Positions 7,288-61,470 of a DNA stretch of 64,000 bases are shown here, in pieces (the first letter of the stretch is position 1; every line of letters begins with the position of its first letter). The position numbers and the translations under genes were made by a program. This stretch comes from Tetracentron sinense (Eukaryota; Streptophyta; Magnoliopsida; Trochodendrales; Trochodendraceae): contig CM026566.1 in NCBI GenBank assembly GCA_015143295.1, forward strand, positions 6,497,072 through 6,561,071, written 5' to 3'. Below the pieces are notes generated by a model. That model did not search any database. It was not told the DNA's origin and saw only the letters and a list, made by a program, of their open reading frames with translations.

Positions 7288-7398
7288 ATGTCGGCAGGTC
7301 CGTTCGACATCTGCAACCCGGAGCCATGGGTTGAGGAAAAGTACGAGGAAGAAAGGGATCCGCCTATCCCAAGTAATCACAGGTGGACAGAGACCTAG
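7288..7398 (+). CDS. LTR-encoded acidic small ORF (S copy, 36 aa)
   Basis: The function is unknown. The ORF starts ATGTCGGCAGGT and encodes MSAG, then PFDIC, then PEPWVEEKYEEE, ending in a short basic tail and TAG. It matches small ORFs in the A, B, D, E and G LTRs at amino-acid level, while codons differ at third positions (the Val of PWV is GTT here, GTC in B and GTG in E). No signal peptide or membrane segment is seen. It lies just after the conserved hairpin and about 210 bp after the tandem repeats. The same ATG region is also a good 3' splice acceptor, so it may be a leader exon rather than a free microprotein. Confidence 0.5.
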   Translation: MSAGPFDICNPEPWVEEKYEEERDPPIPSNHRWTET

Positions 7399-10399: not shown

Positions 10400-10555
10400 T
10401 CAATAATCACCCCCGTGGGGCCAATGGTCTAAATCCCTCGCCTCAACCTGAGGCTCAACTACCGACTCCTCATATGTTTCATCCTCGTCATAGTCCTCCT
10501 CAACCCAAGGACCCGGGGTACAAATGTCAAAGGGGACCCATGCACCTGCCGACAT
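10400..10555 (-). CDS. LTR-encoded acidic small ORF (D copy, 51 aa)
   Basis: Function unknown. On the minus strand the ORF starts ATGTCGGCAGGT and encodes MSAGAWVPFDIC, then TPGPWVEEDYDEDE, and a C-terminal ARDLDHWPHGGDY. It shares the C-terminal DLDHWPHG block with A and the core PFDIC-x-P-x-PWVEE with every copy. It is strongly acidic in the middle and ends at its own TGA about 300 nt before the LTR end, so it is not a gag N-terminus read continuously. Codon use differs from A mainly at silent sites. Alternative reading: the second exon of a spliced leader. Confidence 0.5.
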   Translation of the reverse strand: MSAGAWVPFDICTPGPWVEEDYDEDETYEESVVEPQVEARDLDHWPHGGDY

Positions 10556-10591: not shown

Positions 10592-10916
10592 AAGCTACTA
10601 GCTAACAATAGCAATAACCCTCACACATGGCAACAAGATAGAATTCATCATATCAATATGAAACAAGAATAGCAGTATAAAACAATTAGCATTGAAAGTA
10701 AAGTAAAGTGATAATCTTGAAATGCTTGAATGAATAAGAAAAACTCCGATAAAACTTGTACTATAAAATCATGTCTTATACTTGAAAATAGTCTTCCGTG
10801 TTTCTTTCAAAACATGCCTCTCATGTTTGAAAACTTGTTTCTTGTCATGGTCTCATTCGTAAGAATCACGCATGTTTGTCTTGTCTTGCTTGTTCTTGTT
10901 ATGTTCTTGACTTGAC

Positions 10917-11262
10917 TTGCTTGTATACTTGTGAACCAGATATGACATATCCTAGGGACATGCCCTACCCTTGACCGGCCCGATATCCGGCTTTATCATT
11001 CATGCTTGTTTTCCTTGTGAGCCAGGTATGACATATCCTAGGGATATGCCCTACCCTTGACTGGCCCAATGTCCGACTTTATCATTCATGCTTGTTTTCC
11101 TTGTGAGCCAGGTATGACATATCCTAGGGATATGCCTTACCCTTGACCGGCTCGATGTCCGACTTTATCATTCATGCTTGTTTTTCTTGTAAGCTAGGTA
11201 TGACATATCCTAGGGAAATGCCCTGCCCTTGACCTGCCCAATGTCTGGCTTTGTCATTCATT
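10917..11262. repeat. 86-bp tandem array in D 5' LTR (4 copies)
   Basis: Units carry CATGCTTGTTTTCCTTGTGAG followed by GCCAGGTATGACATATCC. The CATGCTTG core recurs at 11001, 11087 and 11173, exactly 86 bp apart. The other D LTR has only two copies. Confidence 0.85.
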
Positions 11263-12181
11263 TCGTGAATCACAATTCTTGTTCTTGTTTGTTTCTTTCA
11301 ATGACTTGTACTTTGAAAACATCGGTTCATGCATGCATGCATGCATGCGTGGGTGTGTGTGGCACTTGTAGTAATCATGAAGACAATATGACATGAAGGA
11401 TAGTGTATAGCATTTCAATTCATAGTATACACATGTGATAATTTAGATAATCTATATGGCATTTGATCAAGGTTATAAATTTGGAGGAAACTACACATAT
11501 TCATGCTTTCATATTCTTCATTGATTGGCGAACTTCTCATTTAGGCATTTAATCAAACACATTGCATGCAACATTTTGTAGTCGTTTCATTTCCTCTTTT
11601 TAGTGCATACATTCCATCAAAACAATAAGGTGTATTCATTATTTGTAGGATACCCTTCCACCATTTTTCCATCACACACGTTATACCACATTCATACGGC
11701 ATCCAATCGCCTCAAACCCGTCACAAATCCATACATTCCACCATTCACATTATGTTGTTTATATTTTAGGGCATAGCATATTTCAACACAAAGGAGAAAT
11801 GGGGGAGATTCAATACACATTCACTTAAAAAATCTTAGGTTATTACCAAAATAGTTATGGGTGTACTAACCTTGAAAACAAAAGAGGAAAACCCTAGAGA
11901 ATGTCATGGAAACGTTACCTGAGCTTGGAGGAGGAACTCCACCCATGCTTGAGGGTGGATTTGAGAAATCCAAGCCTTTGGGATGATTCTAGGGTTTTCA
12001 AGCCCTTGATTCTCTCAAGTTGAAACCCTAGGAGAAAACCTCTTTCTCCTCTCTTACTCTCTCTCAAAATAGGATTCCTTAGGGGTTATGAACCCTTATG
12101 GCTTGAGCGAGCCCTTATAGGCAAGGGTAGAATGCCCAAAAGATGAAAAAGCCCTTAATGAAATTTCTGTAAAATGCGAAG

Positions 12182-13974: not shown

Positions 13975-14186
13975 TGTAGCACCCCGAACTTTTTCATCCT
14001 TAATGAATAGCACCCTCTTAGCTAATTGGCCATTTTTGTAGTCCAATTAATAAATAAGGGAGAAATCGGAAATTCCGAAACGTCAGAAATGTTCGTTTTC
14101 GAAAGACGGATCCAACGCAAGTTGAATCGTCGAAATCCGACAAGCGAGTCAAAAGATATGGTCAAAACAGTCCAGACATACAGAGC

Positions 14187-14371
14187 ACCGATCGCTCGGT
14201 CCAGTCAGCGATCGATCGGTCCATAACCGATCGATCGGTAGCTATCGCACGGTCAGAAATTTTGTATGGGGAAATTTTCCAGAGAGTGTGTTTTTGACCG
14301 ATCGATCGGTCAATAACACCGATCGCTCGGTAGGCAACCGATCGATCGGTCATAAGCACCGATCGCTCGGT
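14187..14371 (+). promoter_or_regulatory. CGATCGATCGG palindrome array in A 5' LTR
   Basis: Units ACCGATCGCTCGGT, GCGATCGATCGGT and ACCGATCGATCGGT repeat about eight times. They fall in two clusters separated by the AAATTTTGTATGGGGAAATTTTCC region, about 60-240 bp upstream of the TATA-like site. The CpG-rich units survive better than neighbouring CpGs. Confidence 0.65.
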
Positions 14372-15186
14372 CTATCGAGTTTTGCAGAATTTTTAGTGAG
14401 GGCGTTTTCGTCTTTTGGGTGTTAACCCTTACCCATAAGGGCTTGCCCGAGCCTTTAGGGCTTCATTCACCTCACTTAGAAGGTTTTGAGAGAGAAGAAG
14501 AGAAGAGAAGGGGGATTTACATCTAGGGTTTTCCACTTGAGAGAATCAAGGGTTTTAGAACCCTAGAACCGTTCTAAAGGCTTGGATTCTCCAAATCCAA
14601 CCTCAAGCTCGTGTGGAGTACCTCTTCCAAGCTAGGGCAGCGTTTCTACATCATCCTCAAGGATTTTTCTTTCCCTTTTCAAGGTTAGTACACTCTTCCT
14701 AGTTACTTTGGTAATAACCTAGGATTTTTCTAAGTAAATATGTGTTAGATCTTTCCCATTGCTCTCTTGTGTTGGTATGTGCTAAATCCCTAAAACATAA
14801 ACAAGATAATACAAACAAATGGTGGAATGTATGAATGGATGAGGAGTGGAGGCAATTGGATGCCATGTTGTGATGTGTTGAATGATGGGAAAAATGGTGG
14901 AAGGGCATATTACGCATAATGAACGCACCCCAAGTGTTTGATGAAATGTTCGAATGAGAAAATATGAAATAACTAAAGGTAAAAAGGTTGAATACCACAT
15001 GTATGATAGAATGCATGAATAAACTAAGATTTGAAAGCATGAGTCACATAAATGTTCCCCATTTGGCAAGTTGTATGCATGTGTTTATTTCGCTTCTTAA
15101 ATTCTCATGTGAGTTAAAAATTGTTAAAATGCTGTGTCATCATAATTTCATGATTGCTATGCACGAGCACATATGTAGATGGAAGA

Positions 15187-15735
15187 TATTGTCAAGGAGG
15201 TTGGTAGCCCAGGATTATGCGGGTGCTAACCTCTGGCTCATAAGAAACGTATTGCATTGTCAAGGGGGTTGGTAGCCCAGGGATCATGCGGGTACTAACC
15301 CCTGGCTCATAAGAAAGGACTCGGAAATGGTATTGTCAAGGAGGTTGGTAGCCCAGGATTATGCGGGTGCTAACCTCTGGCTCATAAGTAAGGTATCGTA
15401 CTGTCAAGGAGGCGGGTAGCCCAGGGATATGCGGGTGCTAGCCTCTGGCTCATAAGAAAGGTATTGTACTGTCAAGGGGGTTGGTAGCCCAGGGATCATG
15501 CGGGTGCTAACCCCTGGCTCATAAGAAAGGTATTGTACTGTCAAGGGGGTTGGTAGCCAAGGGATCATGCGGGTGCTAACCCCTGGCTCATAAGAAAGGT
15601 ATTGTACTGTCAAGGGGGTTGGTAGCCCAGGGATCATGCGGGTGCTAACCCCTGGCTCATAAGAAAGGTATTGTACTGTCAAGGAGGTTGGTAGCCCAGG
15701 GATATGCGGGTGCTAACCTCTGGCTCATAAGAAAT
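15187..15735. repeat. 69-bp tandem array in A 5' LTR (about 8 copies)
   Basis: Units start near GTCAAGGGGGTTGGTAGCCC and include GGGTGCTAACCCCTGGCTC and ATAAGAAAGG. TGGTAGCC recurs at 15482, 15551 and 15620, 69 bp apart. An open frame on the opposite strand here merely repeats with the array. Confidence 0.9.
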
Positions 15736-15911
15736 ATTAAAAGGACAACTCAAAGAGAAATTGTATGATGCATAGACATGTTTTAGTTTCATAATAATTA
15801 TGACTTGATAAAATGTTTATGTATGTGGTTGCTAGAAATGATTATGAACTATACTCCTCCCATTACTTGTATATGATGTTGTTCGTTATTACCATTGTTA
15901 GTTAGGGGCTT

Positions 15912-15943
15912 GTACTCGCTGAGTATTTCATGCTCAGCCGTAC
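15912..15943 (+). other. Conserved hairpin, A 5' LTR copy
   Basis: GTAC-TC-GCTGAG, a 9-nt loop, then CTCAGC-C-GTAC: a 6-bp stem extended by 4 bp across a small bulge. It ends 4 nt before the small ORF start. Confidence 0.65.
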
Positions 15944-15947
15944 TTTC

Positions 15948-16103
15948 ATGTCGGCAGGTACCCGAGTCCCTCTCGACATCTGTGATCCGGGTCCTTGGAT
16001 AGAGGAGGACTATGGCGAGGAGGAACCTTATGAGGATCTAGTAGTCGAGCCTCAGGCGGAGGCGAGAGACTTAGACCATTGGCCCCACGGGGATGGCTAT
16101 TGA
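15948..16103 (+). CDS. LTR-encoded acidic small ORF (A 5' LTR, 51 aa)
   Basis: Function unknown. It encodes MSAGTRVPLDIC, then DPGPWIEEDYGEEEPYEDL and a tail ending DLDHWPHGDGY. The start ATGTCGGCAGGT is identical in A, B, D, E and S. Compared with E, nearly every shared residue of DIC-x-P-x-PW-EE is written with a different third base (GAC/GAT, CCG/CCT, ATA/GTG), the mark of protein-level constraint. It is acidic, with no membrane segment. It lies in the transcribed leader, downstream of the TATA-like site and about 620 nt before the gag ATG, so it would act as an upstream ORF unless spliced. Confidence 0.55.
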   Translation: MSAGTRVPLDICDPGPWIEEDYGEEEPYEDLVVEPQAEARDLDHWPHGDGY

Positions 16104-16392
16104 GCGAGACAAAGTTGTATTTTGTCTTTTTTATTTTGTTAGGTGGGCCTGTCCACCTTAGACTTAGACGTGTTTTGTATTTATGTTAACTTGGAATACT
16201 ATAGTTTGGATCATTATAAAGAAAAGAAAATTTTAGTTTCCGCTTCCGCAAATTTTGTTTAGCTTCCGCGCTCTGATTATCATTGTTTATTACCTTATTT
16301 ATCTTGTTCATTACAGAATGGTTTGGCAGGTTTGTATTGTCCACCTAAAGTATCCCTAAACTCCTAGGGGGTATTTTGGGGCGTGACAGAGG

Positions 16393-16404
16393 TGGTATCA
16401 GAGC
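16393..16404 (+). other. Primer-binding site of A
   Basis: TGGTATCAGAGC, complementary to initiator-Met tRNA, 4 nt after the 5' LTR. Confidence 0.92.
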
Positions 16405-16725
16405 TCTAGGCATTAGAGTCCCTAGGGTCGCTTAGTTCTAGATACCATAATTGAACAAGGCATTAGGTGTAGGGAAGAGTTGTATTCCAAGTATAGACTA
16501 ACAAGTTAGTCTTAGTCAAAATAGGTTGAACTTCAACCAAACTTAGAATCCTACGCTAGGAACACGACATGTATGTTATGATATGATGTTGTATACCATG
16601 TGTGCATAAATTGTATTGTGCTTATTAAATATGTCTGATGAATATGTATTAAGTGAATTGCGAAATTGTATTAAATGCGTATCCAAGTTAGACTCATGTG
16701 GTACTGTCGTTCTCAGGATCACATC

Positions 16726-17979
16726 ATGAGACGCGGTGCTCGGGGCCGCGGATACAATACGAGGGGAAGTGGAAGTGATGCCCCTTCCGGTGACGAGCAA
16801 CCCGATTTTGCCCAAGCTTTTGCATCTATAGCCGAGACCTTGGCTATGTTAGCAGCAAGGCCGGTTGCCGTTACTCCTTCTACACCTCCGCCACCTCCGG
16901 CACACCATGCTTCAGGATTGGAGGCATTTAGGAGATTGCGTCCTCCTACCTTCTTCGGTACTACTGACCCCATGGTCGCCGAGGCATGGGTGATGCAATT
17001 GGAAAAGATTTTTAGAGCGCTCCAATGCACGGATGAACAGAGAGTGGACTGGGCCACCTTCGTGATGGAAGGTGCGGCCGAGCATTGGTGGAGAGCCGCA
17101 CAGAGACAGAGGGAGTCCACTAGGGCGGGGGAGCCATGGACATGGCCGGAATTTTTGGATGTCTTCTATAAGCAGTATTTTCTAGCAGCTGTCAAAGAAC
17201 AGAAGGAGATTGAATTCATGACTCTTGAACAAGGAGAGTTGAGTGTGGCCGATTATGAGGCTACCTTCGTGGAGTTGTCGAGATTCGCACCTCACCTAAT
17301 TGCATCGGAGCATATGCGAGTCAGGAAATTTGAGCGGGGATTGAAACCCTCCATTAGAGACAGGGTCTCGATGTTCCAGGTGGCTACCTGGGGAGAGGTT
17401 GTGAGCAAGGCGAAGCTTGCCGAGAAGAATTCGGAAGAATTCTTCAAGAGAAGGGATGCGGCTCGAGGCCAATCGAGTAGTTCGGGGTCAGCAGAGAAGA
17501 GGGCTAGGGCAGCCCCATATCAGGCATCCAAGCCGATACGGTCACAGAGGCCTCCCTTGACATCACAGGTATCTCGGCCTACCATTACACCGATACCTCG
17601 TCCCACACTTTCACAGGCCACCCGATATGTTCCACCTTCATCCTCATCAGCATTTGAGGAGTGCTCCTATTGTGGTCGGAGTCACCAGATTGGTGAATGT
17701 CGGAGGATTTCAGGTGGGTGCTTTCACTGTGGAGATGTGAATCACATGGTCAGGGATTGCCCACGCAGGCAGCTGCAGCCTATCCAACCCCAGGGGAGTA
17801 GGCCCCCAGTTCGACAGGATTCCCAGTCGGGATCCTCACAGGCCTCTGCGTCTAGACCTTCACGACCCACGTTATCCACTCCACCGCCTCGTAGGGCAAA
17901 CCAGGGTCAAGTTTTTGCCTTATCGGAACGGGATGCACGTGCATCTGACGATGTCGTGCAAGGTACGCTATTATGCTAA
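16726..17979 (+). CDS. gag: Element A Gag (unspliced form), capsid-nucleocapsid protein
   Basis: Gag packages element RNA into cytoplasmic virus-like particles. The start [16 protein letters not shown] is chosen because it is shared with B, where upstream in-frame ATGs are not conserved. The N-terminus is Gly/Arg rich. The Retrotrans_gag core (about residues 90-200) includes [21 protein letters not shown] and [16 protein letters not shown] Ser/Pro/Arg linker follows, then two zinc knuckles: [13 protein letters not shown] (about 312) and [14 protein letters not shown] (about 331). The frame is intact and ends in GTLLC-stop. Those last codons are intron sequence, so the unspliced message gives Gag only. 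Splicing at 17963-18098 would join it to protease. Only gag is intact in this element. Confidence 0.93.
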
Positions 17980-18098
17980 AGTTTCGAGTTGTAATTGGCT
18001 GTTATTATGTAATGTGATTACTTATATGTATGACATGCTACCTATACTTATGTGTTATTGCGTGAAATCTATTAACGTGAATTTAATTAATCACACAG
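17963..18098 (+). other. Spliceosomal-type intron between gag and protease (A)
   Basis: The donor is GTGCAAG/GTACGC and the acceptor AATCACACAG/GC; it is 136 bp and AT-rich. Joining the flanks gives a continuous frame, [22 protein letters not shown], as expected of intron-less relatives. B has the same intron (134 bp) and D a decayed one. In all three, the gag frame stops within the first few intron codons. Confidence 0.8.
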
Positions 18099-21000
18099 GC
18101 GCGTTATTAGTGAATGAATGCCTAGCTCGAGTGTTGATCGACACAGGATCCACTCATTCCTTTGTATCGCCTAGCTTTGCGAAAGGATTTCCAACCAAGT
18201 CCAATCAGTTGAAGCATGAATTAACCATCTCCACACCGCTCGGCAAGTCAGTGGACACGGACCATATATACAGGGACTGTGTAGTCCAAATGGGACAGAA
18301 TGAGTTGTTAGCCGACCTCATCATCCTGGACTTCCAAGACTTAGATTTCGATGTCATACTTGGTATGGATTGGCTATCGGCTCACCACGGACATGTGGCA
18401 TGTTTCGAGAAGATGGTGAACTTTGAGCCGATGGGAGTCAAGCCATTTCACTTTCGAGGGTTGAGGGAAAGAGACATTGCTCGCCTCGCAGCTTTGAGCT
18501 TAGCAAACCCAGAAGCACAAAACTCCTCGGTCATTCCGGTCGTGAGTGAGTTCTTGGATGTGTTTCCGGAGGAACTTCCCGGATTGCCTCCGGATCGGGA
18601 GATTGAGTTCGCTATAGAGCTTACTCCAGGCACCGCTCCGATTTCAAGGGCACCATATAGAATGGCCCCAATAGAGCTTGAGGAATTAAAGAAGCAAATT
18701 GAGGAGTTACAACAACTTGGTTTCATCCAACCAAGCGTGTCACCATGGGGAGCTCCGGTCCTCTTTGTGAAAAAGAAAGACGGGTCAATGAGAATGTGCA
18801 TAGATTACCGGCAGTTGAACAAGATAACTATTAAGAATCGTTATCCTTTGCCTCGGATAGATGACTTGTTTGACCAACTGAAGGGAGCGAGATTTTTCTC
18901 CAAGATTGATCTTAGATCGGGGTATCATCAGTTAAAGATCAAGGCGGCAGATGTTCCGAAGTCGGCTTTCAGGACTCGGTATGGGCACTACGAGTTCCTT
19001 GTCATGCCTTTTGGGCTGACGAATGCACCGGCGGCGTTCATGGATTTGATGAACCGGGTGTTCCGATCGTACTTGGATCGATGTGTGATTGTGTTCATAG
19101 ATGACATTTTGGTGTATTCCCAGACACGGGAAGATCACGCACGAGACCTTCGTCTTGCTCTAGAGATATTGAGAGAGCATAGGCTATACGCTAAGTTAAG
19201 CAAGTGTGAATTTTGGTTGGAGAAGGTGGCATTCCTAGGCCACGTAGTGTCGGCCGAGGGTATTTCTGTTGACTCGGCAAAGATAGAGGCAGTTATGATA
19301 TGGGAGAGACCCAAGAGCGTCACAGAGATACGTAGTTTTCTCGGGTTGGCAGGCTATTATCAGAGATTCGTGGAGGGATTCTCCAGTTTGGCTGCACCTC
19401 TCACTTATCTGACGAGAAAGAATGCTAAGTTTAGTTGGAGCGACAGATGCTAAGCGAGCTTCAAAGAGTTGAAGAAACGCCTCACCACGGCCCCCATCCT
19501 TAGTGTGCCATCCGGGAGTGGTGGTTTTGTGGTTTATAGTGATGCCTCGCACGTGGGGTTGGGAGGTGTACTTATGCAGCACGGCAAAGTCATTGCTTAC
19601 GCCTCCAGGCAATTGAAAGAGCATGAGAAGAATTATCCCACTCACGATTTAGAGCTCGCCGCGGTTGTGTTTGCCTTGAAGATTTGGCGACATTATCTCT
19701 ATGGGGAACAGTTCGACGTATTTACGGACCATAAAAGCTTGAAGTACCTGTTCTCTCAAAAAGAATTGAATTTAAGGCAGAGGAGATGGGTAGAGTTTTT
19801 GAAAGACTACGAATGTTCCATTCAATATCATCCGGGCAAGGCGAACGTTGTCGCCGATGCTCTTAGCCGGAAGCCCACTGGACTTTTGGCGCACATGATG
19901 CTGAGGGAATGGAGGTTGTTAGAAGATGCATCCAACCTCGACATCAGTTTTAGTCTCCCTACTTTTGGGCCAGTAATGGCTAACATCACAGTTAGGCCAT
20001 ATATCCTAAGCATGACCAGGGAGTTGCAGGGAATGGATGCCGAGCTACTGTCTTGCCGAGACCAGTCAGTTAAAAGTGGCAGCAAGGATTTTGCGGTGAG
20101 GGATGATGGAATTATCACTTTCAAGGGAAGAGTATGTGTCCCAGCCGATGAGAAGCTTAAGCGAGAAATCTTGTACGAGGCTCACCGGTCCAAGTACACC
20201 GTTCACCCCGGGGGTACCAAGATGTATAGGGACTTGAAGAAGCACTTTTGGTGGCGGAACATGAAGCGAGAAATAGCGGGGTACGTGTCCCGATGCTTGG
20301 TGTGCCAACAAGTCAAGGCCGAGCACAGGAGACCGGCGGGTTTGTTGCAGTCTCTCCCTATTCCCGAGTGGAAATGGGAACATATCTCTATGGACTTCAT
20401 CGTGGGGTTGCCAAAGACAGTTAAAAGACTGATGCGATATGGGTTGTGGTTGACAGACTCACGAAGTCCGCCCATTTCTTACCGTATCGGACTACATTCA
20501 ACTCAAATCAGTTAGCTGCCTTGTACATCAAAGAGATAGTCCGATTGCACGGAGTGCCAGTGAGCATTGTCTCAGACCGGGATCCAAGGTTCACATCCAG
20601 GTTTTGGAGAAGCTTTCAGGATGCCATGGGTTCCAGACTAGACTTTAGCACGGCCTTCCATCCACAGACGGATGGGCAAACCGAGCGAGTGAATCAGATT
20701 ATTGAAGACATGCTCCGTGCATGTATGCTAGACTTCAAGGGAAGTTGGGAGGATCACCTACCTTTGGTGGAATTCGCCTACAACAATAGTTACCAGGCAA
20801 GCATACAGATGGCACCCTTTGAGGCTTTGTACGGAAGGAGTTGTAGATCTCCGTTGTATTGGGATGAAGTGGGAGAAAGAAAAATTTTGGGCCCCGAGTT
20901 GATTGAACAAACTGCGGATAGAGTCAAGCTCATCCGGGAAAGGTTGAAGACCGCACAAGACCGACAGAAAAGCTATGCCGACAACCGAAGGAGGGATCTT

Positions 21001-21429
21001 GAATATCGGGTTGGTGACTTCGTTTTTGTCAAGATTTCACCAACCAAGGGGGTTATGAGATTCGGGAAAAGAGGCAAGCTTAGCCCGAGATATGTGGGTC
21101 CATTCGAGATCATTACTCGAGTTGGTGAGGTAGCTTACCGAGTTGCCTTGCCCGCTCACATGGCGGCGATCCACAACGTATTTCACATCTCCATGCTTCG
21201 GAAGTATATCCCGGATCCTTCTCATGTCATCGAGCTTGATCCGATAGAGATCCGAGAGGACCTCACCCTAGTTGAACAACCGGTTCAGATCCTGGATAGG
21301 CGAGATCAAGTCTTGCGCAACAAGACCATTCCCTTGGTCTTGGTAAGATGGCAACACCATTCAAGGGAGGAAGCTACTTGGGAACGAGAAGCCGAAGTAC
21401 GAGAAAAGTACCCCCATTTATTTGTTTAA
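18099..21429 (+). pseudogene. pol: Element A Pol: protease, RT, RNase H, integrase, chromodomain-like end
   Basis: The domains are in gypsy order. The aspartic protease has [15 protein letters not shown] spans [34 protein letters not shown] and the catalytic [10 protein letters not shown] (FxDD form). RNase H starts at [13 protein letters not shown], with TDHKSLKYL and [13 protein letters not shown]. Integrase has HHCC ([20 protein letters not shown]) and the DDE residues in [19 protein letters not shown] and NQIIED. A GPF motif and a tail HHSREEATWEREAEVREKYP are typical of Tekay/Del chromoviruses. Two lesions are visible: a TAA at 19451-19453 where relatives have a Glu codon, and a one-base deletion near 20428 before the integrase [12 protein letters not shown] region. 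Stop is at 21427-21429. Confidence 0.93.
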
Positions 21430-21482
21430 GGCCTTGACATTCCCTTGTATTTTGTTATAGTTTTTACGCATGTATGTATCGT

Positions 21483-21520
21483 CCAAATTTCGGGGACGAA
21501 ATTTTTGTAAGGGGGGGAGA
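21483..21520 (+). other. 3' conserved box and polypurine tract of A
   Basis: CAAATTTCGGGGACGAA is followed by AAGGGGGGGAGA immediately before the 3' LTR. It is the plus-strand primer site; the box recurs before the 3' LTRs of D, E and F. Confidence 0.88.
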
Positions 21521-21732
21521 ATGTAGCACCCCGGACTTTTTCATCCTTAATGAATAGCACCCTCGTAGCTAATTGGCCGTTTTTGTAGTCTAATTAATAA
21601 ATAAGGGAGAAATCGGAAATTCCGAAACGTCAGAAATGTTCGTTTTCGAAAGACGGATCCAACGCAAGTTGAATCATCGAAATCCGACGAGCGAGTCAAA
21701 AGATATGGTCAAAACAGTCCAGACATACAGAG

Positions 21733-21917
21733 CACCGATCGCTCGGTCCAGTCAGCGATCGATCGGTCCATAACCGATCGATCGGTAGCTGTCGCACGGT
21801 CAGAAATTTTGTATGGGGAAATTTTCCAGAGAGCGAGTTTTTGACCGGTCGATCGGTCAATAACACCGATCGCTCGGTAGGCAACCGATTGATCGGTCAT
21901 AAGCACCGATCGCTCGA
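21733..21917 (+). promoter_or_regulatory. CGATCGATCGG palindrome array in A 3' LTR
   Basis: The same two-cluster array as 14187-14371, with four or five substitutions. Confidence 0.65.
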
Positions 21918-22736
21918 TCTATCGAGTTTTGCAGAATTTTTAGTAAGGGCGTTTTCGTCTTCTGGGTGTTAACCCTTACCCATAAGGGCTTGCCCGAGCC
22001 TTTAGGGCTTCATTCACCTCACTTAGAAGGTTTTTGAGAGAGAAGAAGAGAAGAGAAGGGGGATTTACATCTAGGGTTTTCCACTTGAGAGAATCAAGGG
22101 TTTTAGAACCCTAGAACCGTTCTAAAGGCTTGGATTCTCCAAATCCAACCTCAAGCTCGTGTGGAGTACCTCTTCCAAGCTAGGGCAGCGTTTCTACATC
22201 ATCCTCAAGGATTTTTCTTTCCCTTTTCAAGGTTAGTACACTCTTCCTAGTTACTTTGGTAATAACCTAGGATCTTTTCTAAGTAAATATGTGTTAGATC
22301 TTTCCCATTGCTCTCTTGTGTTGGTATGTGCTAAATCCCTAAAACAAAAACAAGATAATACAAACAAATGGTGGAATGTATAAATGGATGAGGAGTGGAG
22401 GAAATTGGATGCCATGTTGTGATGTGTTGAATGATGGGAAAAATGGTGGAAGGGCATATTACGCATAATGAACACACCCCAAGTGTTTGATGAAATGTTC
22501 GAATGAGAAAATATGAAATAACTAAAGGTAAAAAGGTTGAATACCACATGTTTGATAGAATGCATGAATAAACTAAGATTTGAAAGCATGAGTCACATAA
22601 CTGTTCCCCATTTGGCAAGTTGTATGCATGTGTTATTTCGCTTCTTAAATTCTCATGTGAGTTGGAAATTGTTAAAATGCTATATGTCATCATAATTTCA
22701 CGATTGCTATGCACGAGCACTTATGTAGATGGAGGA

Positions 22737-23340
22737 TATTGTCAAGGGGGTTGGTAGCCCAGGGATATGCGGGTGCTAACCCCTGGCTCATAAGAAAGGA
22801 CTCGGAAATGTTGCACTGTCAAGGAGGTTGGTAGCCCCGGTTAAGGGTGCTAACCTCTGGCTCATAAGAAAGGAAATGATATTGTCAAGGGGGTTGGTAG
22901 CCCCGGTTAAGGGTGCTAACCTCTGGCTCATAAGAAGTGTATTGTACTGTCAAGGGGGTTGGTAGCCCCGGTTAAGGGTGCTAACCTCTGGCTGATAAGT
23001 AAGGTATCGTACTGTCAAGGAGGCTGGTAGCCCAGGGATATGCGGGTGCTAACCTCTGGCTCATAAGAAGTGTATTGTACTGTCAAGGGGGTTGGTAGCC
23101 CCGGTTAAGGGTGCTAACCTCTGGCTCATAAGTAAGGTATCGTACTGTCAAGGAGGCTGGTAGCCCAGGGATATGCGGGTGCTAGCCTCTGGCTCATAAG
23201 AAGTATATTGTACTGTCAAGGGGGTTGGTAGCCCAGGGATCATGCGGGTGCTAACCCCTGGCTCATAAGAAAGGTATTGTACTGTCAAGGAGGTTGGTAG
23301 CCCAGGGATATGCGGGTGCTAACCTCTGGCTCATAAGAGA
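22737..23340. repeat. 69-bp tandem array in A 3' LTR (about 9 copies)
   Basis: Full 69-bp units alternate with shorter units in which CCAGGGATATGCGGG is replaced by CCGGTTAAGGG. The order differs from the 5' LTR, so copies were gained or converted after insertion, or the two LTRs have different histories. Confidence 0.85.
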
Positions 23341-23517
23341 TATTAAAAGGACAACTCAAAGAGAAATTGTATGATGCATAGACATGTTTTAGTTTCATAA
23401 TAATTATGACTTGATAAAATGTTTATGTATGTGGTTGCTAGAAATGATTATGAACTATACTCCTTCCATTACTTGTATATGATATTGTTCGTTATTACCA
23501 TTGTTAGTTAGGGGCTT

Positions 23518-23549
23518 GTACTCGCTGAGTATTCCATGCTCAGCCGTAC
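23518..23549 (+). other. Conserved hairpin, A 3' LTR copy
   Basis: GTAC-TC-GCTGAG with loop TATTCCATG and CTCAGC-C-GTAC, as in the 5' LTR. Confidence 0.6.
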
Positions 23550-23553
23550 TTTC

Positions 23554-23709
23554 ATGTCGGCAGGTACCCGAGTCCCTCTCGACATTTGTGATCCGGGTCC
23601 TTTGATAGAGGAGGACTATGGCGAGGAGGAACCTTATGAGGATCTAGTAGTCGAGCCTCAGGCGGAGGCGAGAGACTTAGACCATTGGCCCCACGGGGAT
23701 GACTATTGA
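23554..23709 (+). CDS. LTR-encoded acidic small ORF (A 3' LTR, 51 aa)
   Basis: Same ORF as 15948-16103, with the conserved Trp of PGPW changed to Leu (TGG to TTG) and one Gly-to-Asp change near the end. Being in a 3' LTR it is not in the leader of this element. It would be expressed only if transcription starts in this LTR and reads rightwards into B. Confidence 0.45.
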   Translation: MSAGTRVPLDICDPGPLIEEDYGEEEPYEDLVVEPQAEARDLDHWPHGDDY

Positions 23710-23995
23710 GCGAGACAAAGTTGTATTTTGTCTTTTGTATTTTGTTAGGTGGGTCTGTCCACCTTAGACTTAGACGTGTTTTGTATTTTTTGTTAACTTG
23801 GAATACTACAGTTTGGATCATTATAAAGAAAAGAAAATTTTAGTTTTCGCTTCCGCAAATTATGTTTAGCTTCCGCGCTCTGATTATCATTGTTTATTTC
23901 CTTATTTATCTTGTTCATTACAGGATGGTTTGGCAGGTTTGTATAGTCCACCTAAAGTATCCCTAAACTCCTAGGGGATATTTTGGGGCGTGACA

Positions 23996-26738: not shown

Positions 26739-26879
26739 TCAACAGTAGTCGAGGTATGGCCACACATCCAAGTCCCCATCCTCTTGAGACTGCCATGGGA
26801 TAGGTGGCTCCCTCTCCTCTACATACTCCTCCTCGACCCAAGGCTCGGGGTCGAGGACATCCACGGTACCTGCCGACAT
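26739..26879 (-). CDS. LTR-encoded acidic small ORF (B copy, 46 aa)
   Basis: Function unknown. It encodes MSAGTVDVLDPEPWVEEEYV, then EEREPPIPWQ and an acidic tail ending in TGA. FDIC has changed to VDVL, so the Cys is not essential in this family. The EPWVEE-x-Y and EER-x-PPIP blocks match S (7288-7398). The mix of conserved blocks and changed tails is what a rapidly evolving small protein looks like. Confidence 0.5.
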   Translation of the reverse strand: MSAGTVDVLDPEPWVEEEYVEEREPPIPWQSQEDGDLDVWPYLDYC

Positions 26880-30724: not shown

Positions 30725-31880
30725 AGTATAATCCTCCGTGACTGATAGTCGGGAGTGGGTTGATTTGATATCCATAGATCCTCTTTAGCTAGGTCTGGAT
30801 TGGTGGTATTATGTGAGTCCTCCATGACTGATAGTCGGGAGTGGGTGGATTTGATATCCATAGATCCTCTTTGGCTAGGTCTAGAGTGGTGGTATTATGT
30901 AATCCTTTGTGACTGATAGTCGGGAGTGGGTGGATTTGATATCCATAGATCCTCTTTGGCTAGGTCTGGAGTGGTGGTGTTATGTAATCCTCCGTGACTG
31001 ATAGTTGGGAGTGGGTGGATTTGATATCCTTATATTCTCTTTGGCTAGGTCTGGAGTGGTGGTGTTATGTAATCCTCTGTGATTGATAGTCGGGAGTTGG
31101 TGGATTTGATATCCATAGATCCTCTTTAGCTAGGTTTGGAGTGGTGGTGTTATGTAATCCTCTATGGCAGATAGTCGGGAGTGGGTAGATTTGATATCCA
31201 TAGATCCTCTTTGGCTAGGTCTGGAGTGGTGGATTATGTTAATCCTCCGTGACTGATAGTCGGGAGTGGGTGGAATAATATCCATAGACCCTTTTTGGTG
31301 AGGTATCTGACTGATCGTTGGGAGTGGGTGGAATAATATCCATAGATCCTCTTTGGTGAGGTATCTGACTGATCGTCAGGAGTGGGTTGAATAATGTCTA
31401 TGGATCCTCTTTGGCGAGGTACGTGACTTATCATCGAGAGTGGGTTGAGTGTTATCCATAGATCCTCTTTGGCTAGGTCTGAAGTGGTGGTCCTATATAA
31501 TCCTCTATGACTAATATTCGGTAGTGGGTGGATTTGATATCCATAGATCCTCTTTCGCTTGGTCTAGAGTGGTGGATTATGTTAATTCTCCATGACTGAT
31601 GGTCAGAGTGGGTGGAATAATATCCATAGATCTCCTTTGACGAGATACGTGACTGATCATCGGGAGTGGGTGGAGTGTTATCCATAGATCCTCTTTGGCT
31701 ATATCTGGGGTGGTGGTGCTATGTAATCCTCTATAACTGATAGTCAAGAGTGGGTGGATTTTTGATATCTATAGATCCTCTTTGGCTAGGTCTGGAGTGG
31801 TGAGTTATGTTAGTCCTCCGTGACTGATAGTTGGGAGTCTGTGGATTTGATGTTCATAGATCGTCTTTGACTAGGTCAGG
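30725..31880. repeat. 85-bp tandem array in F LTR (about 13 copies)
   Basis: Units carry GTGACTGATAGTCGGGAGTG and GATATCCATAGATCCTC. The GGGAGT core recurs at 30751, 30837, 30922, 31007 and 31092. A degenerate version is at 41470-41940 in the right copy. Confidence 0.88.
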
Positions 31881-32508
31881 GAAAGCGATGGTTTTACTAT
31901 TTAAAAGAGATGTCGTGAGGACAAGGTTCTCATTGTGGCCGAGTCAGATAATTATATGATCTTGTATTGAGTCTAAAGGCTCAAGGTATGATTTGAATGG
32001 GTATAAGCCCAATCGATTGATAGCTGAGTCTCTGAACTCAGGGACAAAAGTTGTATGCGGATGAAGGCCTGGTCGATCGAGTCTGTGGACTCAAAAATAG
32101 AGAGTGAGCGGTTTTCTGGAATCGGTAACTTGGTGTTGTGAACATAGTTGATATTGGATGAATTTGGTAATGGAAAATATTTGGAGGTTAGGAACCTCGA
32201 TTAAAGTGAAATAAATCTGGGTGACCTCGGTTCATGATTTACAATATTATTTTCTATTGTAATATAGAAATTGAGCTGTATTATAATATCTTTCTGATGT
32301 GTATTACGAGGTGGAAAATAGCCTAGATGGATTATGGATTTCGCTGGAGTCTATGGCTCACTCCTCTCATTTGATGTTTTAGATTCTGAAGCTGGTAACT
32401 CAATAGAGTCTGGAAAGTGTTCCGGCGCAGTTGTAGTGCCAAAAGTAAAGGCTATTGTAGCTAGTGAGGTATCGTATTTGCTTATAATGGGTTATTGTGA
32501 TGACTAGT

Positions 32509-33609
32509 TGTAACGCCCCAAAATACCCCCTAGGAATTAGGATACTTTGGCGACGTCACTTACATTTCAAATCATCCTGCAAAGAGTATACAAGACATGC
32601 TAAATAGTGAACTGAAAATTTCTTTGATGAGTTAACTGTATTCCAAGTTATACAATATGAAATCACAAAAGAAAGTGCGGACAGGCCCGCCAAAATACAT
32701 GAATATAGCCTCCCAAACTCACCCACAGCTCACTCACTTAGAATCTACTACCACCTAATAGTAGCCCTCTACCGGAGGTTCCTCCACAGGTTCCTCAACG
32801 AACTTTTCTTCTACCCAGGGGCCGGGAGCACAGATGTAGAATGGAGCAGTAGCTCCCTCATTACCTGTCGACATAAACGTACGGCTGAGCATGGAAAACT
32901 CAATGTGTACCAAATACTAACCAATAGTCATAGCATAGCAATCAATCACAATATAAAGTAGGAAGCAGTTAGTATAAATAACAGGAAAGAAAACAATATA
33001 TATTTCATGCTTGCATCACATAAAAAGTCGGGAAAAACTTTTGAAACTCATCGTGCACTTGACTCGACTTAAAACACTCTTTTCGTGCTTGAAAACTTGA
33101 CTTATCGTGTTTTGTCATGCTTGTCTTGTTGTATCATGCGTGTCATGCTTGTCATGTCGTGTCATGCTTGCTTGGAATGAAATGCACTTGTGAGGGAGGT
33201 GAGACCCCTCTTATGCAACTTGTGAGGGAAGGTGGTGTGAAACCCCTTCTTATGCAATGCACGTGTCATGCTTGTCATGCGTTTCATGTCATGTATCATG
33301 CTTGCTTGCTTTCTTGGAACCACGAGCACGACATGTAGTCCACGAGTAGGGTTTTAAGCATTAAACACCGTGTTTTGTTTTCAAGGTTTTATTACCGATT
33401 CACGAACACTATGACAAGGCCAAATGAAATGGTTGGTAAATAGAGGTAGGGCATATCTTAAGATATGTTTTGCCTCGCTTTTTGACACGAACAAGAACGC
33501 CCCAAGCATGCATGTTACATTCAATGCATTTCGTTAAAGAGGGGTCTCCCCTACCTCACAAGTTATTTCTCATTTAGGAAGAGGGGTCTCCCCTCCCTCA
33601 CTAGTAGTT
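32509..33609 (-). repeat. Rearranged LTR piece G (E-like)
   Basis: It begins TGTAACGCCCCAAAATACC, the reversed end of an E-like LTR, and up to about 33300 matches E in reverse orientation, including hairpin and small ORF. From about 33350 to 33609 E-like sequence runs in the plus direction (GGGGTCTCCCCT units, ATATGTTTTGCCTCG). It is therefore an inverted junction, not one LTR. It is followed directly by a polypurine tract and the second F LTR. Confidence 0.65.
32755..32874 (-). CDS. LTR-encoded acidic small ORF (G copy, 39 aa)
   Basis: Function unknown. It encodes MSTGNEGATAPFYIC, then APGPWVEEKFVEEPVEEPP and GYY before TAG. It matches E (36834-36953) residue for residue over most of its length, while many codons differ at the third base (Val GTA against GTG, Glu GAA against GAG). 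The reading frame survived although the LTR around it is rearranged and the hairpin stem is partly decayed. The start reads ATGTCGACAGGT, one base different from the others. Confidence 0.5.
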   Translation of the reverse strand: MSTGNEGATAPFYICAPGPWVEEKFVEEPVEEPPVEGYY

Positions 33610-35387: not shown

Positions 35388-36297
35388 CTTCGTATTTTTT
35401 CAGAAATTTCAGTCAGGGTATTTTAGTCTTTTGGGCGATTCACTCATGCCTTAAAGGCTTTGCCCGAGCCTTGAGGGCTTCATTCACACACTTAGAGTAT
35501 TTTGAGAGCTAGAGAAATAGGAGAAGGGTTTCTAAACCTAGGGTTTGCTTTTGGAGAGAAATCAAGGGGGTTTTAAGAACCCTAGATCACTCGAGCTCGT
35601 TTTCCTTCAAGTTCTTGGTTCCAGCTCGTGAGGAGCACTTTCCCCAAGCTAGGGCAGCGACTCACGCACGTTTTTCCAAGGAGTTTCTTCCCTCATTTTT
35701 CAAGGTCAGTACTTTTTACTACCCTCCTAGTTATAGTTTTCCTTTTTCTTTCCCGATTCTTTGTTTTCTTCTCATCTATGAATGTGCCATGAGTTGTGAA
35801 TGGTGTGAATGGAGAGGGAGGTTGGCGATTGGATGCCGTGTGGAATGTGATGTAGTGAATGGAATGGGAAGGGTATTTTATCAATAACAGCTATACATTT
35901 ATTGCGAATATTAAGCCACCTAGAAAAGCATGACATAGGCTTAACAAATTATGTACACACCCCTTGTTTGATGAAATGCCAAGGTGAATGAAATGAATTA
36001 TAAATTAAGGAAATGCATGCTTAATTACGTATGTAACTTGTTAGGACTTATGATAGTGTGAGACCTTGTTTTTCCCTAAATTTCATGAATGTTTATTTCT
36101 TTAAAATTTGCGTGTGCTACATATTGTGAAATCTCCAATTGTCATATTTAATTCCAAATGTAAGTATGCACACGATTTCACGAGCACGGCATGCATGACA
36201 TGATTTACCGAGGCTTTTCAAGAATGAGAATTAGAGGTGGGACATATGCTACGATATGTTTTACCTCGGTTTTGGCAAAAACAAGACTATCATGCAT

Positions 36298-36540
36298 AAA
36301 GAAGGGTTTCCCTTCCCTCGCAAGTGCATTTAGGAAGAAGGGTCTCCCTTCCCTCACAAGTAGTTTACTTTCCGAGTAAGCATGGAACATGACATGACAA
36401 GCATGAACATTTACGAAGAAGGGTCTCCCTTCCCTAACAAGTAGTTTACTTTCCGGATAAGCATGGAACATGACATGACAATCATGAGCATTTAGGAAGA
36501 AGGGTTTCCCTTCCCTCACAAGTAGTTTACTTTTCCAAGC
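36298..36540. repeat. 80-bp tandem array in E 5' LTR
   Basis: Units with GAAGGGTCTCCCTTCCCTCA and AGCATGGAACATGACATGAC. GAAGGG recurs at 36337, 36417 and 36497 (80 bp), plus a partial unit at 36301. The right LTR has the same array at 40165-40500. Confidence 0.85.
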
Positions 36541-36833: not shown

Positions 36834-36953
36834 ATGTCGGCAGGTGATAGCGGAGCGGCTGCTCCTTTTGATATCTGTGCTCCTAGCCCTTGGGTGGAGG
36901 AGGAGTACGTCGAGGAACCTGTAGAGGAACCTCCGGTAGCGGGTTATTATTAG
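36834..36953 (+). CDS. LTR-encoded acidic small ORF (E copy, 39 aa)
   Basis: Function unknown. It encodes MSAGDSGAAAPFDIC, then APSPWVEEEYVEEPVEEPP and GYY, followed by TAG. It belongs to the same family as the A, B, D, S and G ORFs: invariant M-S-[AT]-G start, PFDIC core, PW-VEE. The Glu-rich repeat VEEPVEEPP is shared only with G. It has about a dozen acidic and no basic residues. The hairpin lies 5 nt upstream. The copy expected in the right LTR (about 40772) is broken, but that stretch is poor-quality sequence. Confidence 0.55.
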   Translation: MSAGDSGAAAPFDICAPSPWVEEEYVEEPVEEPPVAGYY

Positions 36954-38810: not shown

Positions 38811-41185
38811 TGTAGAACCCCGGAACTTTTTCTCATGTCTTGGAATGTGTGCCAAGGTATGATACCTTGTAATCCCAAATTTTATGAAATGAGAATTTGA
38901 AACTTCGATGGAATTGTGTCAAGAATGCTATAATCAATTAGATAAATTATTCAATAAAGCCTATAAGCTTTAAAGAGATCTTAGTCAAGTTTAGAAGATG
39001 TTAGAATAGAAGTAGAATGGGTCCAAATAGTAGGAATGGGGTGAAAAATGGTCTCAGTATAGAAAATTACAGAGCACCGATCGCTCGATCCATGGAGCGA
39101 TCGATCAGTCCACAACCGATCGATCGGAGGCTATCGATTGGTTGAAAATTTCATATGGGAAAATTTTTCAGAGAGCTTGTTTTTGACCGAGAGCTTGGTC
39201 ATATCACCTGTCGCACGGTGGACAACCAATTCATCGGTCATAACCACCGATCGCTCAGTCTTCGCATTTTTTTCAGAAATTTCGGTAAGGGTGTTTTAGT
39301 CTTTTGGGCGATTCACTCATGCCTTAAAGGCTTTGCCCGAAACTTGAGGGCTTCATTCACACACTTAGAGTATTTTGAGAGTTAGAGAAAGAGGAGAAGG
39401 GTTTCTAAACCTAGGGTTTGCTTTTGGGGAGAAATCAAGGGGGTTTCAAGAACCCTAGATCACTCAAGCTCGTTTTCCTTCAAGTTCTCGGTTCAAGCTC
39501 GTGAGGAGCACTTTCCCCAAGCTAGGGCAGCGACTCACGCACGTTTTTGCAAGGATTTTCTTCCCTAATTTGTCAAGGCCGGTACTTTTTACTACCCTCC
39601 TAGTTATAGTTTCCCTTTTTCTTTCCCTATTCTTTGTTTTCTTCTCATCTATGAATGTGCCATGAGTTGTGAATGGTGTGAATGGAGAGGGAGGTTGGCG
39701 ATTGGATGCCGTGTGGAATGTGATGTAGTGAATGGAATGGGAAGGGTATTTTATCAATAATAAATGCACATGTATTGTGAATATTAAGCCACCTAGAAAG
39801 CATGACATAGGCTTAACAAATAATGTACACACCCCATGTTTGATGAAATGCCAAGGTGAATGAAATGAATTATAAATTAAGGAAATGTATGCTTAACTAC
39901 ATATGTAACTTGTTAAGACTTATGATAGTGTGAGACCTTGTTTTTCCCTAAATGTCATGAATGTTTATTTGTTTAAAATTTGCGATGTGTACATATTGGG
40001 AAATCTCCAAATGTCCATATTTAATTCCAAATGTAAGCTGCACATGATTTCACGGGCACGGCATGCATGACATGATTTACCGAGGCTTTTCAAGAACGAG
40101 AATTAGAGGTGGGACATATCCTACAATATTTTTACCTCGCTTTTGGCAAGAACAAGACTATCATGCATAAAGAAGGGTTTCCCTTCCCTCGCAAGTGCAT
40201 TTAGGAAGAAGGGTTTCCCTTCCCTTACAAGTAGTTTACTTTCTGAGCAAGCATGGAACATGGACATGACAAGCATGAACATTTACGAAGAAGGGTCTCC
40301 CTTCCCTCACAAGTAGTTTACTTTGTGAGCAAGCATGGAACATGACATGACAAGCATGAGCATTTTGGAAGAAGGGTCTCCCTTCCTTGACAAGTAGTTT
40401 ACTTTCGGGCAAGGATGGAGCCTGACATGACAAGCAAGAGCATTTAGGAAGAAGGGCTTCCCTTCCCTCACAAGTAGTTTACTTTTCTAAGCAAGCATGA
40501 CATGGCATGACACGACATGATACGACAAGACAAGACAAGTTTCAAGCCCAAAAAAGGGTAATTTAAGTCAAGTCAAGTACACGACATTTCAAGGATTTAT
40601 TGGCTTTTATGAATGTAAGCATGATATAACTGCTTTACTTTCTTCTAATGATATGAATTGTTCCTACCTTATATATGTGAACTGCTTCCTATTTCTATAC
40701 TGCTATGGATTTGCTATAACTGTGGAGGGTAGCATTGGGTACCCATGAGTATTCCTTATGCTCAGCGGACTTTTATGTAGGGATGGTGATAGCGGGGGTG
40801 CCCTTTTGATATCTGGCTCAGAGCCTTGGCGTGGAGGAGTAGTCGAGGAACGGTGGAAGGAACCTCGGTGGGGGTTATCTTAGGGGTGATAGATCTGACA
40901 TGGTGAAAACAGCTGTGGGTGCGTTGAGGGTAATGGTTCATGTATTTTGGGCGGGCTGTCCACACTTTCTTTTGTGTCTCTTTGGTGTCCGCTTGATCAC
41001 TGATGTATACATAGAGGTATTGGTAAGTCTTCTCGCTGATGCTATGTTAGGTATGTTTCCGCGATTATGTCTTCTTTGTTATGCTATCGTGGGTATTTGC
41101 CGGGATCAGTTGTCAAGAGGTCATGCAAGTCTCGATTAGTCGTCCAAAGTTCAACTCTAACTCTAGGTGGGTTTGGGTCACGCCA
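38811..41185 (+). repeat. 3' LTR of element E
   Basis: It starts TGTAGAACCCC after AAGGGGGGAGGA and is collinear with 34939-37254. Up to about 40720 differences are mostly substitutions. Beyond that, many one-base indels appear. Confidence 0.82.
39077..39259 (+). promoter_or_regulatory. CGATCGATCGG palindrome array in E 3' LTR
   Basis: Same array as 35203-35387, somewhat decayed. Confidence 0.55.
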
Positions 41186-57400: not shown

Positions 57401-57741
57401 ATCCCTAACCTTACTCATAAGACAATCGAGCACCCCTACACGTGCCTTTCCGATGCAAACATGAAAAGCATTCTGACCTCTATTGTTAACCAGCTCAACA
57501 GCATCTGGGTACCCTCAAATGATCATCTCAGTTGTCCGAGCGTTACCATTACCCGCTGCATAATGAAGAGCTGATCTGCCATCCTTGTCTTGGATGTAGG
57601 CTACTGAGCTGTCTGCCTCTAATAAAAGTATGGTCACCCCAGTCCAACCATAGGATGCAGCATAGTGAAGAGCAGTCCTCCCATAGATATCCTGTCCTTC
57701 GATGAGTTCTGGCTTTTTTTCCACTAATAATTTTGTAATAT
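54367..57741 (-). pseudogene. ACD6-like ankyrin/PGG membrane protein gene, broken
   Basis: The ankyrin exon (57741-57215) has consecutive repeats: QDIYGRTALHYAASYGW, QDKDGRSALHYAAGNGN, NRGQNAFHVCI and DNEGNTPLHLAVKIGN. After a 2.3-kb intron, the PGG exon (54940-54367) encodes VYGHLHDAG, then MIVAALIPTVTFAAAFQVPGG and three further hydrophobic segments, four in all. Family members sit in membranes and act in defence and cell-death signalling (known from ACD6). Lesions: TGA at about 57518 inside an ankyrin repeat, probably from CGA; a one-base frameshift near 54855; and a MITE that replaces the last residues. The ankyrin exon acceptor is ATGGCAG/AT; the donor has lost bases (GAG/GTTGG; the duplicate has GAG/GTAAAA). 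The 5' exons are not visible: copia sits upstream. Confidence 0.85.
54941..57214 (-). other. Intron of the ACD6-like gene
   Basis: AT-rich, non-coding, with a PGG-exon acceptor ATGAACAG/GAG at 54940. It contains a foldback-repeat arm near 56590-56660. From 56405 on, it is present again at 62853 onward. Confidence 0.6.
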
Positions 57742-58013
57742 CTGCCATGCATATAAGAGGGTTAAAAGCAGAGAGATACCAATTTTTGTTAAATTGAGAG
57801 AGCATTGGAAATATTTATTTACTGATCTACCCCCTGCAATTTCTTCATCTTATTTCAAATATGAGTGGATCAGAAAATGAACTCTTCCACATGGTTGATG
57901 GGAAGAGTCCTCTCATTTATTTATGAATAGGAAATAGGTAACCCAAATTAAGAATGAAAAGAATTTGTTCTAATTACCATAATTATAATGGCCCCAAATG
58001 GCCTTGACGTGTA
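57742..58013 (-). other. Upstream intron/flank of the ankyrin exon
   Basis: Ends at the left copia LTR. No coding sequence is seen. Confidence 0.5.
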
Positions 58014-58545
58014 TGTTAGAGTTTTTTATTATTAAATAAAAACCCATGTGGTCCAACGCAACTTTTAGGCTTTCAATACTCGAATTGTATTGCTGTCAAT
58101 AGAGAATGTTAAGGTTAATGGGTCCCACTAAAGAGATGTGATCGAACTGGGACTCTTTAAGTGTTATTAAAGCTAACAACATGGTCAGGGTTGGCGACCG
58201 TTAGATCTTTGGTGTGATCCCTCTTAGTCCTTGGATCTTATGATGGGTAGGGTTCCAAGGGTATATAAAGCAAAGGGGGGTCCCTCTTTTCTCTTACGTC
58301 ATTAAGAAGCCCCATTGAATCAGACCTAAGGAGAAAAGAGAAGACTCTTCTCATCCTCTCAAGCGCCAAGAAACCCAGCATCACACCATGAAGGGAACAG
58401 GGAAATTCTAGTGAAAGGTATGAGATTACCAGTTTCAATCCTTGTCTATTTTGTTTATGAATTCTAGAAAATTTTTCGCATGGTCTAGATCTAGGATTGG
58501 AATAATACATAAGGTTTAAATTGTTTATTATTCTGAATCCCAACA
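58014..58545 (+). repeat. 5' LTR of the copia element
   Basis: Starts TGTTAGAG, ends CCCAACA before the PBS. A TATA (GTATATAAAG) is at 58261-58270. The 3' LTR lacks this TATA (CAAATAAAG) and 42 bp before it. Confidence 0.88.
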
Positions 58546-58547
58546 AT

Positions 58548-58559
58548 TGGTATCAGAGC
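58548..58559 (+). other. Primer-binding site of the copia element
   Basis: TGGTATCAGAGC, initiator-Met tRNA type, 2 nt after the LTR. Confidence 0.9.
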
Positions 58560-61056: not shown

Positions 61057-61470
61057 TGCAGGAAGAACAAAGGAATTCATTCATCGGTGAAGCGCCAAGG
61101 CTGAGGAACTGTTGATTTTTGAAGAACTCTGCACCAACAGTATTAGAGGCTGTTGGAACTTGCTTTTAGTATTAGACTTTTTTCATGATTTTTACTATTA
61201 GATGTTATTTTCATTGTGCCATTGTTTAGGCGAGATATTATTTATTTTGGATTGGATACAATTTAGTTTTATCCTTGAGGGAAGTACACTCTTCATCAGA
61301 CATATTTTTTAGACAGTTGGTAGTAATATATTAGTGGATGATCTTTATTAGCTAACTTGGACTCATATTTTATGTCATTCTTGTTGTGTATGTTTGTTAA
61401 TTTTATTAGATTTTCTCTAGGTAATTGTGACTCTTGTGACAATTTGAATAGTAAACTTATAGTAGTAATC
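61057..61470 (+). other. Copia internal DNA without coding signal
   Basis: Sequence after the zinc knuckle; protease, integrase and RT expected here are missing. No recognisable motif. Confidence 0.4.

Follow-up and report, generated by a model that had tools for sequence, protein, structure and literature searches.

LTRs are regarded as regulatory DNA without coding function, and their divergence serves to date insertions. Genes lying in LTRs are known from retroviruses: sag of MMTV and nef of the lentiviruses, both with an accessory role. In plant LTR elements, the accessible part of a review assigns additional ORFs (aORFs) to the internal region, where the stretch from pol to the 3' LTR is the commonest site, and the phrase 'in the LTR' does not occur in that part of its text (PMC7264820). 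The available passages on sunflower describe a 402-residue 5' aORF in Tekay group 2 (PMC11728184). Within the text accessible to us, a survey of LTR structure contains neither 'Tekay' nor 'reading frame' (PMC3601003), and a survey of plant element classification contains none of 'aORF', 'additional ORF' and 'in the LTR' (PMC6317226). Grape peptidomics recovered 47 non-conventional peptides from LTR-retrotransposon regions; LTR-encoded ones may be among them, the passages available being silent on position within the elements (PMC9070638). Further context comes from parts of PMC12786077, PMC11963269, PMC9289625 and PMC5902531. The original prediction, made from the letters of the DNA analysed here, had reported short conserved ORFs inside the LTRs of several gypsy families and knew of no described family of this kind; in the literature covered, to which subscription papers mostly do not belong, we likewise found no description of an ORF inside a plant LTR.

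Short ORFs near the ends of six LTR families

The window is the whole 64,000-nucleotide stretch of Tetracentron sinense DNA that was analysed. It contains six diverged LTR families (S, D, A, B, G and E), each with an ORF that has the start ATGTCG(G/A)CAGGT. All seven of the predicted ORFs, which we call microORFs, are present and open and encode 36-51 aa:

15948..16103, + strand: microORF A1, 51 aa, in the 5' LTR of element A (open frame and codon tests)
23554..23709, + strand: microORF A2, 51 aa, in the 3' LTR of element A; Leu in place of the core Trp
10400..10555, - strand: microORF D, 51 aa (open frame and codon tests)
26739..26879, - strand: microORF B, 46 aa (open frame and codon tests)
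32755..32874, - strand: microORF G, 39 aa, with an MSTG start (open frame and codon tests)
36834..36953, + strand: microORF E, 39 aa (open frame and codon tests)
7288..7398, + strand: microORF S, 36 aa as present; frame break near the C-terminus, with a B-like tail in another frame to ~7424
40775..40890 (approximate limits), + strand: E2, a shattered copy (LTR-end profile and sequence comparison)

The start sequence ATGTCGGCAGGT is exact in six of the seven ORFs and has a single mismatch in G, just as predicted. With up to two mismatches allowed, it matches at eight places in the window (the seven ORFs and 25129), compared with a mean of 2.64 and a maximum of 6 in shuffles. The placement inside LTRs was also correct, all ORFs lying within the final 365-440 bases of their LTRs. 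The predicted core fared less evenly: PFDIC is exact in three of the six families (S, D and E), but G has PFYIC, A has PLDIC and B has TVDVL, and the PW pair reads PL in A2. S is frame-shifted near its C-terminus, where the B-like SQVDRDLDRWPYLDYC follows the ORF in a different frame.

A profile made from the LTR ends of the seven copies has nine matches in the window: the seven themselves, E2, and a tail at the left window edge that begins past the ORF region. In seven of the eight complete LTR ends in the window, S counted among them, the frame that starts at the ATG stays open for 36 codons or more. When the microprotein was compared with the window by tblastn, strong matches occurred at the LTR copies only, those elsewhere being weak and chance-like. 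E2 lies in the 3' part of the second E LTR (40406-41180), which differs from the first by 129 substitutions and 20 gap events over 807 columns; the 5' part of the pair is far less diverged, with 99 substitutions and 9 gap events over 1601 columns. The stretch containing E2 may be badly assembled or otherwise damaged.

Both LTRs of element A (13975-23995) carry the microORF, and we used its gag as the yardstick of divergence:

13975..16388, + strand: 5' LTR of element A (self-comparison, ends)
21522..23995, + strand: 3' LTR of element A (self-comparison, ends)
16726..17979, + strand: gag of element A, starting at the ATG that B and D have as well (Pfam)

The LTR end is marked by GGGGCGTGACA, or a form of it with one or two mismatches, in S, D, A1, A2, B and G, and a PBS-like site, TGGTATCAGAGC, comes after the LTR in A, B and D. 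The Pfam matches of element A, the single element tested, stand in gypsy order: gag with a zinc knuckle, protease, RT, RNase H, integrase and a chromodomain, the Chromo match scoring 24.8 bits, slightly below the curated cut-off of 25.1. Element A is a chromodomain-bearing Ty3/gypsy chromovirus, and membership of the Tekay/Del clade is plausible on the basis of the chromodomain, the domain order and the general layout. Its coding sequence past gag is divided among three ORFs, and no target-site duplication is visible around it.

Other repeats were recorded in the same window. Short tandem repeats with units of ~69, 85, 81 and 86 bases, differing between families, occupy 15187-15737, 23010-23343, 30733-31930, 36259-36533, 40130-40485 and 10905-11318; those of A, E and D lie within the LTRs, upstream of the microORF. 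A repeat pair (56420-57537 and 62859-64000, 95.6% identical) flanks a TGGTATCAGAGC site at 58548 and is probably a different LTR element, and the microORF profile has no match over 56420-64000. A tandem duplication of ~880 bases, 94.5% identical, lies at 47436-49198.

Codon-level constraint and its extent

Codon changes were counted over a 22-codon core in the six families, made up of the first four codons and the block PFDICx-PxPWVEExYxEE; A2 (the LTR partner of A1), the shattered E2, the variable stretch between the blocks and the tails were left out. The minimum numbers of changes at codon positions 1, 2 and 3 are 11, 6 and 28 (45 in total). Column shuffles reached 28 third-position changes in 10 of 200 000 trials, and in 0 of 200 000 when the first four codons were omitted. 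Pooled over the core, pN/pS is 0.22 in frame; the two remaining sense frames give 1.12 and 1.77, and the three antisense ones 1.12, 0.33 and 2.06. Codon models returned an omega of 0.10-0.14 (MG 0.114, GY 0.099, MGK 0.143, GY+F1X4 0.121), and forcing omega to 1 under MG lost 23.9 log-likelihood units (2dlnL 47.9, one parameter).

These values bear out the protein-level signal that had been claimed for the LTRs of several families, and the changes of Val, Pro and Glu codons beneath a kept protein are as the original prediction described them. A dN/dS near 1, which it had named as evidence to the contrary, is absent among the six families of the window, a sample far from the 'many independent copies' it had in mind. 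Judged from codon statistics, the microORF is very probably a selected coding ORF within the six families of this one window.

The signal was followed beyond the core. Over the whole ORF span, sense frame 0 is the only one of the six frames that is open in all six families. In the LTR-end alignment, in-frame windows of 66 bases at offsets of -6 to 45 from the ATG are stop-free and have ratios of 0.21-0.33; deeper into the poorly aligned tail misaligned stops turn up and pN/pS rises to as much as 0.75. For the 127 LTR-end windows that lie outside the ORF, the median is 0.86 and the minimum 0.38; none is at or below 0.3, and no stop-free one is below 0.6. When longer LTR stretches were compared in pairs, the open 40-codon window with the lowest ratio was at the microORF for A1-D (0.22; 97 open windows) and for G-E (0.24; 102 open windows), and the lowest windows for A1-B (32 windows) and D-B (44 windows) overlapped the microORF with weaker ratios of 0.35 and 0.44. 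Early in the ORF, the gaps in the alignment measure 18, 9 and 6 bases. Those in later columns (single bases and 16 bases) include the S frame break and columns past the stops of G and E, and downstream 12 of 40 gap entries are divisible by three.

We also considered a gene on the opposite strand, and rejected it: the low-ratio antisense frame mirrors the third positions of the sense frame and has stops in the core in three of the six families, and each antisense frame is interrupted in at least one of the families. Conservation of a non-coding kind is disfavoured by the codon statistics.

Set beside gag, the microORF has diverged in a comparable way. Between A and B, pS and pN are 0.76 and 0.23 for gag, 0.75 and 0.33 for the whole microORF, and 0.62 and 0.18 for its core; synonymous drift is alike in microORF and gag, and constraint on the core is about as tight as that on gag, with the whole ORF under looser constraint. 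Three changes separate A1 from A2: a synonymous one and two replacements, of which one affects the core Trp. The constraint is visible between lineages and absent in the inserted A pair, as expected of a retrotransposon gene.

Nucleotide conservation at the start and the path to gag

Codons 2-4 (TCG, GCA or ACA, GGT) are invariant at the third position in the six families, whereas the remaining 17 degenerate core codons all vary there; random placement of three invariant sites among 20 would put them on codons 2-4 once in 1140. The bases preceding the ATG are conserved as well. A nucleotide-level constraint thus overlaps the start of the microORF, in addition to the selection on protein. Two hairpins are predicted nearby:

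15912..15943, + strand: predicted hairpin 1 of A1, upstream of the ATG (folding; homologous stretches before the other copies)
16141..16158, + strand: predicted hairpin 2 of A1, 3' of the stop (homologous in S, D, A2, B, G and E)

Hairpin 1 folds in all six families at -8.6 to -15.4 kcal/mol, with z of -4.4 to -5.5 in A, D, B and E, -2.4 in S and -1.4 in G. Covariation is thin: hairpin 1 has one pair changed on both sides, which 140 of 500 shuffles reach, and hairpin 2 one double change (G/E) among four distinct rows, which 148 of 500 reach. The predictions therefore rest on folding and position and not on covariation. No RNA family reached its gathering threshold in the window, and a 16-base piece of hairpin 2 is present in 35 viral contigs. 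The loop of hairpin 1 contains an in-frame ATG (15933-15947, with homologous sites in B and G) that would add MLSRTF and give products of 57, 52 and 45 aa in A1, B and G, respectively. This ATG was rejected as the start: it is absent in D and out of frame in S and E, three of the six families, which leaves ATGTCG as the start that all families share. Position -3 relative to this start holds T in four families (A, D, B and G), C in E and G in S, which by the general start-context rule is presumably a weak context in five of the six families.

Between the microORF and the gag ATG there are 13 further ATGs in A (two in frame with gag), 17 in B and 19 in D, so with an RNA start upstream, simple scanning would hardly reach gag. 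Directly before the gag ATG in A, B and D is an acceptor-like CTCAG|GA (16714-16728 in A), preceded by the strongly conserved AATGCGTATCCAAGTTAGACTCATG; the combination suggests a leader intron. The CAG|GT within the microORF start scores 2.6-4.3 bits as a donor, a weak score, and its positions +3 to +6 are not conserved. A Gag fusion through ATGTCGGCAG|GT was rejected, the joint being in frame in B and D and out of frame in A. Near the LTR end, a conserved block, (CAG)GATGGTTTG..CAGGT or close variants, is found at 16311-16331 and at homologous sites in D, B, A2, G and E; its left side is acceptor-like and its right side donor-like in some families.

The position of the RNA start bears on where in the LTR the microORF falls. 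Upstream of the ATG, at -60 to -130, there are TATA-like matches (7-8 of 8 letters) in A (-80), E (-103) and G (-128 and -106); downstream, at +230 to +267, there are matches in S and D (both 8 of 8 letters), A and E. B has none on either side and G none downstream. The downstream matches are as many or more and, if anything, better, which argues against a leader position. The microORF could lie in R, and hence in the 5' leader as well as at the 3' end of the RNA, or in U3, and hence at the 3' end only; we rate the two about equally.

A candidate accessory microprotein

The six families encode products of 36-51 residues with 8-15 acidic, 0-3 basic and 4-7 aromatic residues and a pI of 4.05-4.29, which agrees with the acidic character predicted earlier. 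The core is separated from the stop by 11 to 26 residues of poorly alignable tail. AlphaFold2, run on the D copy with six sequences, gave no secondary structure, a pTM of 0.17 and a best mean pLDDT of 77, at residues 11-20; the microprotein is predicted to be disordered, on the weak evidence of a shallow alignment. Searches of Pfam and of PDB sequences at E up to 1 gave no match, with a sensitivity limited by the very short query. No relatives were found in viral contigs or prokaryote genome contigs, collections that are silent on spread in plants.

The best overall explanation, to which we give roughly an even chance, is an unannotated LTR-borne accessory gene of Ty3/gypsy chromoviruses, probably of Tekay/Del type, with a trans-acting product. 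An LTR-derived RNA would contain the microORF and ribosomes would begin at its ATG, only part of them initiating where the context is weak; translation from this ATG is likely. The disordered acidic microprotein would then work in trans. We lean slightly towards such a product because the core is conserved while its distance to the stop varies, which points to a motif rather than to arrest at the stop. The PFDICxPxPWVEE core may be a linear motif that binds a partner, either a host factor or the basic N-terminus of Gag, and the acidic tail with its aromatic residues may be an accessory surface. Owing to the LTR location, each new copy would carry the gene twice, and a solo LTR would retain it. 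Counting against this explanation are the frozen start nucleotides, which require an explanation other than protein selection, and the inserted copies without sign of constraint: the A1/A2 differences, the broken frame of S and the shattered E2. The start context, weak in five of the six families, and the tail, with its poor alignment and higher pN/pS, count against it too. Of the original prediction, the observation itself is confirmed and the interpretation as a whole partly supported.

A wider proposal can be put forward only tentatively: that these are a new family of LTR-encoded accessory microproteins of Tekay/Del-type elements, selected, trans-acting, doubled at each insertion and kept in a dispersed reservoir of solo LTRs, with a frozen overlapping splice or initiation signal that ties expression to RNA processing or to gag expression.

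Several other readings have to be weighed against a trans-acting accessory gene. If the microORF were a cis-acting conserved-peptide uORF, translated in the 5' leader, a stalling nascent peptide would tune gag and the released peptide would be jobless. A short, peptide-conserved ORF ahead of gag with a mostly weak start context and many intervening ATGs has that appearance, and plant conserved-peptide uORFs are likewise short and conserved as peptides. In those, however, the conserved residues generally adjoin the stop, whereas here the core is far from the stop and the tails vary; the uORF also needs a leader position, and TATA-like matches stand on both sides. We consider it fairly unlikely. 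The downstream matches, complete in S and D, would suit a U3 gene, upstream of the RNA start of the LTR and expressed only from the 3' LTR, in the manner of retroviral sag or nef, by way of an RNA that is spliced or separate, but A, E and G have upstream matches too, and B and G have no downstream match, and such a gene seems to us unlikely.

The frozen synonymous sites of codons 2-4 surround CAGGT, and this is what an exon would explain, with GGCAG|GT as a splice site: either the acceptor for a larger spliced product, or the donor of an MSAG leader exon joined to gag, for which an acceptor-like site lies ready in A, B and D and the frame fits in B and D. Neither form sits well with the rest, as an acceptor would remove an ATG that is invariant, a donor leaves the codon constraint after it unexplained, and the donor is weak, with unconserved flanking positions and a joint out of frame in A; we judge an exon quite unlikely. 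A regulatory or structural nucleotide element that makes no protein, its ORF a by-product of few sequences, would account for the conserved nucleotides around the start and the predicted hairpins in a six-family sample. The third-position excess, the low omega, the single open frame and the lack of any comparable window elsewhere in the LTR end make it very improbable.

If a selected gene does lie inside these LTRs, an abundant kind of plant repeat has an overlooked protein, part of the LTR is non-neutral between lineages, and coding sequence can persist in solo LTRs. With a constraint about equal to that on gag, such a microprotein would be a direct entry to how these elements regulate themselves or the host, testable in any plant with active elements of such kind.

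Among known systems, MMTV sag and lentiviral nef resemble the microORF in being coding sequence in an LTR, but their proteins are much longer, and no sequence relation to either emerged from the Pfam and PDB searches with this very short query. Pararetroviruses have short ORFs in leaders with ribosome shunt (PMC5902531). If the microORF lies in a leader, the two would share a short ORF and hairpins that precede a leader rich in AUGs; here, in contrast, the peptide is conserved and the hairpins are small, one of them preceding the ORF. The plant aORFs (Grande gene23, RIRE2, Retand and sunflower Tekay group 2, in the available parts of PMC7264820 and PMC11728184) are likewise extra ORFs beside gag-pol in several families, domainless and of no assigned function. 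Like an aORF conserved in most copies and related families, the microORF is open at most complete LTR ends and has a low omega. The aORFs described there lie in the internal region, however, whereas every copy of the microORF is in an LTR, entirely within it, much shorter than an aORF, and present in both LTRs of element A.
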